From: Saccharofermentans sp.
GTDB lineage: Bacteria; Bacillota; Clostridia; Saccharofermentanales; Saccharofermentanaceae
DNA: 64,000 nt
Direction of reading: 5' to 3'
Assembly: GCA_016292215.1 (NCBI GenBank)
Contig: JAEFBB010000001.1
Span: forward strand, 62,001-126,000
Shown: in pieces, positions 16,154 to 19,119 of the stretch
Position numbering within the stretch: the stretch's first letter is position 1
Layout: the number at the start of each line of letters is the position of its first letter
Translations under genes and position numbers: made by a program
The notes under the pieces: model-generated
Database searches by the model: none
What the model saw: only the letters and a program-made list of their open reading frames with translations
What the model was told of the DNA's origin: nothing

Positions 16154-17446
16154 ATGGGTCACGACCGTTCACGTTATGAGATCTTAAGCCCTGCCGGCAA
16201 CCCGGATAAACTCCGCGCCGCAGTCAATTACGGTGCAGACGCAGTCTACCTGTCAGGCCAGAGCTACGGCCTCCGCGCTTTTTCCGATAACTTCAATGAA
16301 GATGAGATGAAGGCAGGTATTGCCTATGCTCACGATCACGGCGTAAAGTGCTATGTCACGCTGAACGTTATGCCGACCGAAGAAGATCTTGCAGGCCTTG
16401 AGCATGCCGTCAGATTTGTGGGCAACGAGAGCGGCGCAGATGCGGTGCTCGTATCCGATCCCGGCGTGTTCACCATGGTCCGCACCTTATGTCCTGACCT
16501 GGAGATACATATCTCGACACAGGCAAGCGTTACAAACAGCGCTGCCTGCAATTTCTGGGCATCCCAGGGCGCGAAAAGAATAGTTCTCGCGCGCGAGGTC
16601 TCACTTGACCAGATAAAGAAGATCCGCAAAGCGATCCCTTCAGATGTTGAGCTTGAATGCTTCATCCACGGCGCCATGTGCGTCTCATATTCGGGAAGAT
16701 GCCTGCTGTCCAACTATTTCACGGGCAGAAGATCCAACGGCGGCGCCTGCGCCCAGCCCTGCAGATGGGGCTATTATGTTGTCGAAGAAAAACGTCCCGA
16801 CATCCCGCTCCCCGTGGAAGAGGATCAGAGAGGCACATATATTTTCGGAAGCCGTGATATCTGCATGATCGATCACGTCCCCGAGCTTGTGGATGCGGGC
16901 ATCAATTCGTTCAAGATCGAAGGCAGGATCAAGGGCGCTTACTATGCTGCCGCAGTTACAAAGGTCTACAGGGAAGCCATAGATCTGTACTGCAAGGATC
17001 CTGATAACTATAAAGTCGATCCCAGATGGAAAGTGATCCTCGACAAGGTTGTCCACAGAGACTATGACACGGGTTTCTTCTTTGATTCTCCCGCTGATGA
17101 CGCGAAGATAGATCCTGACAAGTCTTATAACAAGCCTGCTTTTGTGGTGGGCGTTACTTGCGCTGCAGATAATGAGACAGGCCTCATAAAGGTTACCCAG
17201 AAGAATAAACTCTATGAAGGCGATACCCTAAATGTGCTCATGCCTGAAGGGTATATGGCTCCTATCGTCGTATCCGAGCTTTACGATGACAAGATGAACA
17301 GGGTAAAGGACTGCCCGCATCCCGAGATGACTTTCTACATGAAGGCTGTATCATCTGCTGACGGCAGTCCGGTTGTGCTTCCTGAGATGACTTTCCTCTC
17401 CCGTGACGGCGATAAGGACTTCGGAATTCCCGCTCCCGCGATTTGA
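16154..17446 (+). CDS. trhP: U32 family protein, TrhP/YrrO-like (tRNA hydroxylation)
   Basis: The 430-residue protein carries the U32 signature: ECFIHGAMCVSYSGRCLLSNYFTGRRSN in part, then GGACAQPCRW. The conserved cysteines in CVSYSGRC and CAQPC are expected to hold an iron-sulfur cluster. An N-terminal TIM-barrel-like half starts EILSPAGNPDKLRAAVNYGADAVYL. U32 proteins were annotated as peptidases or collagenases, but TrhP/RlhA members are involved in 5-hydroxyuridine formation in tRNA or 2501 hydroxylation in rRNA from prephenate. The position after mltG matches Bacillus yrrN/yrrO, supporting the tRNA role. The second TrhP subunit is not seen here. Confidence 0.8.
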   Translation: MGHDRSRYEILSPAGNPDKLRAAVNYGADAVYLSGQSYGLRAFSDNFNEDEMKAGIAYAHDHGVKCYVTLNVMPTEEDLAGLEHAVRFVGNESGADAVLVSDPGVFTMVRTLCPDLEIHISTQASVTNSAACNFWASQGAKRIVLAREVSLDQIKKIRKAIPSDVELECFIHGAMCVSYSGRCLLSNYFTGRRSNGGACAQPCRWGYYVVEEKRPDIPLPVEEDQRGTYIFGSRDICMIDHVPELVDAGINSFKIEGRIKGAYYAAAVTKVYREAIDLYCKDPDNYKVDPRWKVILDKVVHRDYDTGFFFDSPADDAKIDPDKSYNKPAFVVGVTCAADNETGLIKVTQKNKLYEGDTLNVLMPEGYMAPIVVSELYDDKMNRVKDCPHPEMTFYMKAVSSADGSPVVLPEMTFLSRDGDKDFGIPAPAI

Positions 17447-17553
17447 CAATTTACAGATTTTGCTCTGAACGGCCATTTTCTTTTACAGGTATTGCCTGAT
17501 ATCTGTATGTCAGAAATCATTCATTATTTTGTAACACTTTCTGACATCGGTTG

Positions 17554-17562
17554 TGCTATACT
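17554..17562 (+). promoter_or_regulatory. Extended -10 promoter of the orphan RNA unit
   Basis: TGC-TATACT is a strong extended -10. Transcription would start at about 17569. A TTGTAA at 17529 is too far to be an ideal -35. Confidence 0.55.
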
Positions 17563-17609
17563 CAAGCCATCAAAGAAAGGAACTCAATAAGTTCAAGGAG
17601 GTGAGACCA

Positions 17610-17660
17610 ATGGGAAGTGAAGCACAAACAAGCAGACGGTTGGTCTCGCTTGATTCATAG
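17610..17660 (+). CDS. Possible 16-residue peptide with perfect ribosome site
   Basis: The ATG at 17610 follows AAGGAGGTGA (17595-17604) at ideal spacing. It encodes a hydrophilic 16-mer, MGSEAQTSRRLVSLDS, ending at TAG 17658-17660. The ribosome site is one of the best in the window, yet both it and the first base of the ATG sit in predicted stems. There is no signal peptide or transmembrane character, so it is not a typical type I toxin. It could be a leader or signalling peptide, or the match could come from the palindromic RNA. The opposite strand also has GGAGG plus a 21-codon ORF because the element is near-symmetric. Confidence 0.35.
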   Translation: MGSEAQTSRRLVSLDS

Positions 17661-17767
17661 TTTCCTCCAAGTAAGTTTTTACTTAACATTGAGTTTTTCT
17701 CAAAATAGAATCAACAGATCGATCGACAAGCTAACTTACAGCTAAATATGTTTGTAACAGTAAACCC

Positions 17768-17799
17768 AACTCCCGCAAAAGTCAGCGGGAGTTTTTCTT
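17768..17799 (+). terminator. Terminator of the orphan RNA unit
   Basis: AACTCCCGC (17768-17776) pairs perfectly with GCGGGAGTT (17785-17793), followed by TTTCTTT. Confidence 0.85.
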
Positions 17800-17871: not shown

Positions 17872-19119
17872 ATGGATAAGTATAAGAAGCGTTTCAACAA
17901 AACCGAGAAGAACAGATGGGCAGGACTTACGATATCACTGTGTATCGTAGTAATTTTCTACATGCTGCTGTCAAATATCGGCAACTTGAAGGGGTTCTTT
18001 AATTCATTTTTCGCGATCACTTCAACGGTCATCATAGGTGCCGTTATAGCCTATATTGCAAATCCTCTTGCTGTTTTCATCTACAGACATTTAGAGAAGA
18101 AATTCAAAGTCCATAAGAACAACGCGTGGGTCATCTCGGCTGTTATCTCCCTGACGGTGATAATCGGTCTTCTGATCACGCTCTTTATCCTTATCACCCC
18201 GAGGCTCATTGAGAACGTTACGACGTTTGCCAAGGGTCTTAACGGATATATCAACAGCCTGAAAAATCTTGTCCTCAGGACCGAATTCGATGAAGATATC
18301 AAAATGTCCATCATCGGTTTCATCGATGAGAACGCGAGTATCACGGCAGTTGTTACCAGGTATCTTTCCGTAAACGAGATCACGGCCAGCTGGGTATTGA
18401 GTTTTTCCGCAGGCATCGGTGCCAAGGCTTTGGGAGTCATTATCGGAATCATTCTCGCCTACTATTTCCTTTGTGCCAAGAAGAAGCTGATCGACGGATT
18501 AAGCGAATTCTTTTTCCTGGCGATACCTTCGAGGTATTACGAGGATTGGAGAGGCGTGTGCAACAGACTCAATGCGATCTTCTCGAGATTCCTGGTCTGT
18601 GAATTTGTTGATGCACTTCTTGTCGGAATCGTAAATGCGATCTTTATGTTCGCAACGGGCATGCCTTATGTCGTTATCTGTTCTGTGGTCGTATCCATCA
18701 CAAACCTCGCACCGACATTCGGTCCTTTTGTGGGCGCGTTCATCAATGCGGTCATCCTCTTGCTCGTTAAGCCTGATGCGGTAATTCCGTTCCTTATCTT
18801 CACATTGGCATTGCAGCTCATTGACGGTTATGTCATTAAGCCCAGGCTCTTTGGCTCGGCATTGGATGTTCCGCCGTTCCTCGTTCTCGTATTCCTCGTT
18901 GTAGGCGGAAAGATCTGGGGTGTACCGGGCGTGCTTTTGGCGATCCCTTTGGCTGCGATCTTATCTTACATCTACAAGCAGATCGTTGTGCCGTGGCTTG
19001 CCGCGCGCAAGAAGGTCAAGGATGAAGACGAGGCCAAAGAACGCGAAAAGGCTAAGAATAAAGCCGAGAAAAAGGCAGAGGCAGCGTTACCGGAAAATAC
19101 CGATAATAAGAAGAGTTAA
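17872..19119 (+). CDS. AI-2E family transporter
   Basis: The 415-residue membrane protein has the AI-2E family pattern: two N-terminal helices, a long extracytoplasmic loop (about 115-165), then five or six helices including TNLAPTFGPFVGAFINAV and PRLFGSALDVPPFLVLVFLVVGG, which are family hallmarks. The C-terminal 40 residues are a highly charged Lys/Glu/Ala tail. Members export autoinducer-2-type signals or act as Na+/H+ antiporters; the substrate cannot be assigned. The start at 17872 has no ribosome site and lies on the predicted transcription start, so it looks leaderless. It follows the orphan RNA unit by 72 bases. Confidence 0.85.
   Translation: MDKYKKRFNKTEKNRWAGLTISLCIVVIFYMLLSNIGNLKGFFNSFFAITSTVIIGAVIAYIANPLAVFIYRHLEKKFKVHKNNAWVISAVISLTVIIGLLITLFILITPRLIENVTTFAKGLNGYINSLKNLVLRTEFDEDIKMSIIGFIDENASITAVVTRYLSVNEITASWVLSFSAGIGAKALGVIIGIILAYYFLCAKKKLIDGLSEFFFLAIPSRYYEDWRGVCNRLNAIFSRFLVCEFVDALLVGIVNAIFMFATGMPYVVICSVVVSITNLAPTFGPFVGAFINAVILLLVKPDAVIPFLIFTLALQLIDGYVIKPRLFGSALDVPPFLVLVFLVVGGKIWGVPGVLLAIPLAAILSYIYKQIVVPWLAARKKVKDEDEAKEREKAKNKAEKKAEAALPENTDNKKS

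Follow-up and report, generated by a model that had tools for sequence, protein, structure and literature searches.

A conserved family of compact transcription units in Saccharofermentans-like rumen bacteria, predicted to encode micropeptides whose start site is masked by their own codons

Between a U32-family peptidase gene (16154-17446; PF01136) and an AI-2E-type transporter gene (17872-19119; PF01594), the window, by which we mean the whole 64,000-nucleotide stretch of DNA that was analysed, holds a compact transcription unit (Table 1) with a predicted transcript of about 230 bases. Transcription would begin near position 17569, and a search for intrinsic terminators found one where 0.2 were expected. 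In most relatives a GC hairpin and T tract are recognisable with altered stem letters, and the 5' hairpin upstream of the Shine-Dalgarno (SD) sequence persists while its own letters vary (alignment, judged by eye). The first-pass annotation of this DNA had described an extended -10, a perfect SD, the ATG of a 16-codon ORF and a strong terminator, and all of these are present; it placed the unit correctly but set the left edge too far in, as the unit extends to the operator at about 17507. At the gathering score Rfam has no match to the unit, the sole match in the window being a tRNA elsewhere; relaxed thresholds gave sub-threshold matches for the unit with E-values of 0.5 or worse, and a literature search found no description of it.

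Table 1. Features of the unit, in window coordinates.
Feature	Position	Strand	Details and basis
Compact transcription unit	17507-17799	+	operator, extended -10, SD, ATG, ORF, nested hairpins, terminator; sequence
Putative regulator box	17507-17547	+	ATGTCAGAA...TTCATT...GTAACAC...TTCTGACAT; kept in main family
Extended -10, TG-C-TATACT	17554-17562	+	TG 17554-17555, TATACT 17557-17562; sequence; kept in homologues
5' hairpin upstream of SD	17580-17594	+	GAACT...AGTTC; alignment
Perfect SD	17595-17604	+	AAGGAGGTGA; sequence
Fold A, 13-bp stem	17599-17651	+	AGGTGAGACCAAT 17599-17611 with GTTGGTCTCGCTT 17639-17651; prediction and conservation
Small ORF	17610-17660	+	ATG at 17610; 16 codons, peptide MGSEAQTSRRLVSLDS
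Fold C	17637-17725	+	CGGTTGGTCT 17637-17646 with AGATCGATCG 17716-17725; duplex energies, covariation
Helix H2	17650-17714	+	TTGATTC 17650-17656 with GAATCAA 17708-17714; continues fold C
Second anti-SD	17661-17668	+	TTTCCTCC; directly after stop; can pair with AAGGAGG outside stem A (predicted folds)
Hairpins H3 and H4	17669-17703	+	H3 17669-17674 with 17679-17684; H4 17689-17693 with 17699-17703; covariation
3' element ACAnnTnAAYA	17738-17748	+	apparently unpaired; columns invariant in alignments A1 and A2
Intrinsic terminator hairpin	17768-17793	+	element to 17799; 9 pairs, 6 GC, then T-rich tail

Sequence searches indicate that the unit belongs to a conserved family confined to one genus of rumen bacteria, Saccharofermentans-like. 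BLAST found it in 23 of the 59 related genomes searched, every one of the same genus, and a pattern scan of GTDB contigs gave 39 loci, many from rumen or gut, labelled Saccharofermentans, Mageeibacillus, Clostridia, Clostridiales, Oscillospiraceae or Ruminococcaceae, among them contigs of Ruminococcaceae bacterium AB4001 and YAD3003, whose records carry no metagenome-assembly label; a pattern scan of viral sequence collections gave no match. A covariance model of the core recovered homologues in 46 of 85 genomes of the genus, in none of 103 from other genera of the order, and, when 391 genomes sampled across the class were searched, in nothing beyond the genus. The start-site pattern occurred in 58 of the 85, a count that includes a few chance matches such as the clearly unrelated L150 and L151 (the reversed control gave one match); it was absent from the same 103 genomes, and tolerating two mismatches brought in nothing outside the genus. 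Tandem copies about 370 bp apart occur in two genomes (L092 and L093; G011, G022), and one of these copies has GGAGGCAAGACC with GGTTTTGC, all 13 pairs of stem A being retained through altered letters. One further copy, L096 (G098:C162, 266-401), lacks the SD and part of the 5' region (TGAAGACCAATGGG), which may reflect decay of the copy or a fault in the assembly.

The start site is conserved. All of the first 31 aligned homologues carry GGAGGTGAGACC unchanged, GGAGGTGAGACC-N-ATG is likewise invariant in the first aligned set, and the distance from ATG to TTGGTCT is exactly 27 nt in 39 of 39 loci, although 18-46 was permitted. The ORF has 17-28 codons in relatives and 16-28 in the family as a whole; in the window copy and in L028 the frame ends at codon 16 because one base is missing after GATTCA. 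None of the 52 distinct copies has an in-frame stop within the first 48 nt, against 11 of 52 and 52 of 52 in the other two frames. Peptides mostly start M-G-x-[E/D], codon 4 specifying E or D in 49 of the 52 with its third base free (entropies 0.24, 0.37 and 1.26), and a change from AGA to AAG at codon 9 still leaves R or K there, though it breaks a possible RNA pair. In divergent subfamilies the ORF past codon 6 is unrelated to that of the main family, yet it stays open (for example MGSEEPLILMPDSSYPHNSH and MGSETQSSISEYSSARKIIS). Beyond codon 4 the peptide sequence is weakly conserved, which is what a role for the start site or the RNA alone would predict. Taken together, the pattern in these sequences favours translation, with most of the peptide sequence not tightly conserved. 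The peptides are hydrophilic and often Ser-rich, inspection by eye found no membrane-length hydrophobic stretch in any of the 52 (for example MGSEAQTSRRLVSLDS and MGSETQSSISEYSSARKIIS), and a Pfam search of the peptides gave no match. A similar start site at L148 (G104:C133, 916-939, minus strand) precedes a longer ORF whose leader is of the double-glycine type (MGNEKRSDKDTRSVSLDELENVVGG...) and which may encode a bacteriocin-like precursor; we set this locus aside, since the match may be due to chance.

Regulators of the OmpR/PhoB family bind 11-bp-spaced direct repeats overlapping the -35. The box upstream of the unit reads as just such an array, that is, 11-bp-periodic direct repeats (TTMAYA-like) over the -35 region, and it can also be read as a long dyad. 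Across the upstream regions of main-family and divergent copies the repeat score at period 11 averages 12.5, whereas shuffles give 9.3 and the other periods 8.5-10.4, and within the window the best box lies at 17509. From these repeats, the unit is probably under an OmpR/PhoB-type regulator. Allowing up to three mismatches, there is no second copy of the operator in the genome. In a test for a Pho regulon, no canonical pst operon was recognised there; the best pstB-like matches resemble amino-acid transporters and lack a matching box, which speaks neither for nor against a link to phosphate.

The stretch folds more strongly than expected (-60.1 kcal/mol, against -47.1 ± 4.1 in dinucleotide shuffles; z -3.2, 0 of 200). 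The rod described in the first-pass annotation is not a single structure: two alternative pairings compete for the strand that covers the SD, and each excludes the other. In fold A, codons from the second half of the ORF are predicted to pair over a portion of the SD and the first letters of the ATG and so to act as the mask. Within the main family 98.8% of cells in stem A are paired with no two-sided changes, and as the stem scarcely varies there, its support in that family consists of conservation only. Inspection of folds and sequences indicates that divergent subfamilies re-pair the same region with other letters (GAGACC:GGUCUC, GAGUCC:GGAUUC, GAUACC:GGUAUC and GAUUCC:GGAAUU). Among 16 representatives, one per subfamily, native stem A duplexes average -18.4 kcal/mol and permuted ones -16.4 (permutation p = 0.0002); over all copies the values are -19.05 for native and -14.7 for swapped pairs, and in the GATACC group the pairing is no better than that of swapped sequences. 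The second anti-SD falls inside the ORF in relatives (..VSSK) and is CU-rich without strict conservation, and divergent ORFs repeatedly show UCCUCC-like stretches in their second half.

In fold C, a 3' strand is predicted to take the masking strand instead, leaving the SD free. Its duplexes have energies of -13.6 kcal/mol when native, -10.3 when swapped and -6.5 when shuffled, and over the whole C structure in the main family 58 cells carry two-sided changes, compared with 18.8 in shuffles (0 of 500); the alignment behind the latter count was fitted to the C structure, whereas the duplex-energy test was not. In H2 one pair switches from A-U to G-C in 18 of 39 sequences, and in H3 and H4 four pairs per helix are changed on both sides, the alignment of H3 being loose (74% paired). 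The earlier annotation had named homologues without paired changes as the finding that would count against it; paired changes are present, in both the fold C duplexes and the covariation. Fold C was not recovered in every divergent group. A local hairpin (CAAGC..GCTTG) considered as a third state was rejected for its weak covariation.

For the window copy the predicted energies of the two folds are nearly the same (-38.2 and -38.4 kcal/mol). The median cost of the open over the locked state is 2.2 kcal/mol in 35 main-family copies and 6.8 in 16 divergent copies, so that the latter look locked in these predictions. When equilibrium folding was computed for a growing transcript, stem A reached 0.98 with the RNA end at 17652, and fold C appeared at full length only (0.28).

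Several known systems resemble the unit in part. SgrS/SgrT and SR1/SR1P are likewise stand-alone regulated RNAs that end in a terminator and contain a small ORF; their peptides have about 39-43 amino acids and their base-pairing targets are known. At 16-28 residues, the peptides of the unit are shorter than those of these dual-function sRNAs. In hok/sok, Hok is a membrane toxin and Sok an antisense RNA; the hok mRNA is similar to the unit in its metastable 5' hairpins and in that the fold of the full-length mRNA governs translation of a small peptide, and we saw no sequence relation. The closest experimental parallel is provided by the AapA1 and AapA3 type I toxin mRNAs of Helicobacter pylori (PMC6733600). 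Both AapA and Hok toxin mRNAs hide the SD with anti-SD elements, which in AapA3 also lie inside the ORF, and the full-length aapA3 RNA has 225 nt and metastable SD-masking hairpins, one of them within the ORF (PMC6733600). The unit shares with AapA1 and AapA3 its size (about 225 nt), a very small peptide, a hairpin-masked SD with an anti-SD in the ORF, an alternative long-range pairing and hairpins backed by compensatory changes. In contrast, the final long-distance helix of AapA locks the SD and needs 3' trimming, whereas the 3' helix of the unit is predicted to bind the mask, and the direction of the final switch therefore seems reversed; furthermore, the AapA peptide is a toxin whose locus is controlled by the antisense RNA IsoA, while the unit has a hydrophilic peptide and no conserved antisense promoter. 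The parallel is one of mechanism, not of membership. The first-pass annotation knew of no family with this arrangement, which holds for Rfam and does not hold for the mechanism, as AapA and Hok mask their SD in this way (PMC6733600).

We propose, with a confidence only a little above even, that the unit is a stand-alone micropeptide mRNA for 16-28 residues whose translation start is gated by its own fold. An OmpR/PhoB-type activator would turn the promoter on. Once transcribed, the second half of the ORF would close over the SD and ATG by base pairing, giving fold A, and block early initiation; once the 3' part is transcribed, it could seize the masking strand (fold C), upon which the SD would be exposed and the peptide made. 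Because the mask sits within the ORF, a ribosome that has already initiated would also hold it open. Transcription itself, the order of folding, fold C as the translated state, the regulator and the peptide as product are all inferred. Of the three options offered by the first-pass annotation, a structure-gated peptide gene is the best and has the backing of conservation. Against it stand the GATACC type, with its pairing no better than swapped, and the divergent groups in which fold C was not recovered. More tentatively, and with a greater chance of being wrong than right, the family may consist of genus-wide two-state micropeptide mRNAs that use their own coding sequence as the switch: lineages would re-invent an anti-SD within the ORF, the need to mask the ribosome site would write the second half of the peptide, and the 3' strand would unmask it at transcript completion. 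If true, start-site masking by a gene's own codons, known from a few toxin mRNAs, would also evolve in a family of peptides that are not toxin-like, with the mask rebuilt from new sequence lineage by lineage. The family offers a clean natural series where peptide and RNA constraints overlap, and it extends the gene repertoire of rumen bacteria by an unannotated family. As far as can be read from sequence, it would be a new example of a structure-gated peptide mRNA, by a masking mechanism already known from AapA and Hok.

The unit could also be a trans-acting or dual-function regulatory RNA, in which other mRNAs are the pairing partners of the CU-rich anti-SD or of the unpaired 3' element, and ribosomes loaded on the small ORF do no more than tune the folding or stability of the RNA. 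We regard this as rather unlikely. Strong covariation of the rod, the recurrent UCCUCC-like stretches of divergent ORFs, the conserved 3' element, the weak conservation of the peptide past codon 4 and the independence of a unit with its own promoter and terminator would all fit such a role; however, the CU stretch is not strictly conserved and is accounted for by self-pairing with the SD, and a regulatory RNA has no need of an invariant start site, an E/D codon or an always-open frame. A 6S-like or ribosome decoy RNA without a useful peptide, another of the options in the first-pass annotation, has in its favour the long rod of some predicted folds and the perfect SD. Given that Rfam returns no 6S match, that constraint is strongest at the start site and its complement, and that unrelated subfamilies retain both the open frame and the E/D codon, we find it scarcely credible.

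The resemblance to AapA and Hok raises the question whether the unit is a type I toxin mRNA whose peptide acts as the toxin while an antisense RNA serves as antitoxin. The size class is equal (aapA3, 225 nt; PMC6733600), the SD of the primary transcript is masked by a structure, stem A, that is predicted and conserved, the anti-SD lies in the ORF, there is an alternative long-range pairing, and two genomes have tandem duplicates. Such mRNAs encode short hydrophobic, membrane-acting peptides, whereas the 52 inspected here are hydrophilic, often Ser-rich and without a membrane span; on the opposite strand of the unit, where we looked for an antisense RNA, the window copy has no promoter-like site and the alignment shows no such minus-strand site that is conserved; and the long-range helix binds the mask rather than the SD, which reverses the predicted logic. 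We believe a toxin to be improbable. A cis-acting leader or attenuator of the downstream gene is more improbable still, even though the terminator lies upstream of genes and the ilvN and trpE contexts recall leader peptides. The flanking pairs vary between U32/AI-2E, U32/BlaI-BlaR, ilvN/61-aa protein and DJ-1-like or other genes/trpE (most names were read by eye from protein sequences; ilvN was confirmed by NCBIfam), while promoter, SD, ORF and terminator move together across these contexts. Since the neighbours vary, the unit is not the leader of one gene: a leader would be expected to keep its target, and the downstream gene differs by species (AI-2E transporter, BlaI/BlaR, 61-aa protein or trpE). 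Several downstream genes have a promoter-like sequence of their own (by eye), and a run of regulatory codons is absent.

Two kinds of protein recur beside the RNA. A 55-61 aa protein (MDIDVNKIK... or MVDLPNIDINKVKETASGALDAV...) is often found 3' of it across divergent subfamilies (L014, L100 and L140), about 245 bases past the SD in L014; its Pfam matches are weak and sub-threshold, to an MT0933-like antitoxin or SepF. A DUF815 AAA-ATPase (PF05673, tested in L098) lies just upstream of the RNA in L098, L136 and L147, and a short protein resembling the N-terminal part of this ATPase takes the same upstream place in L016-L018, L042 and L054.
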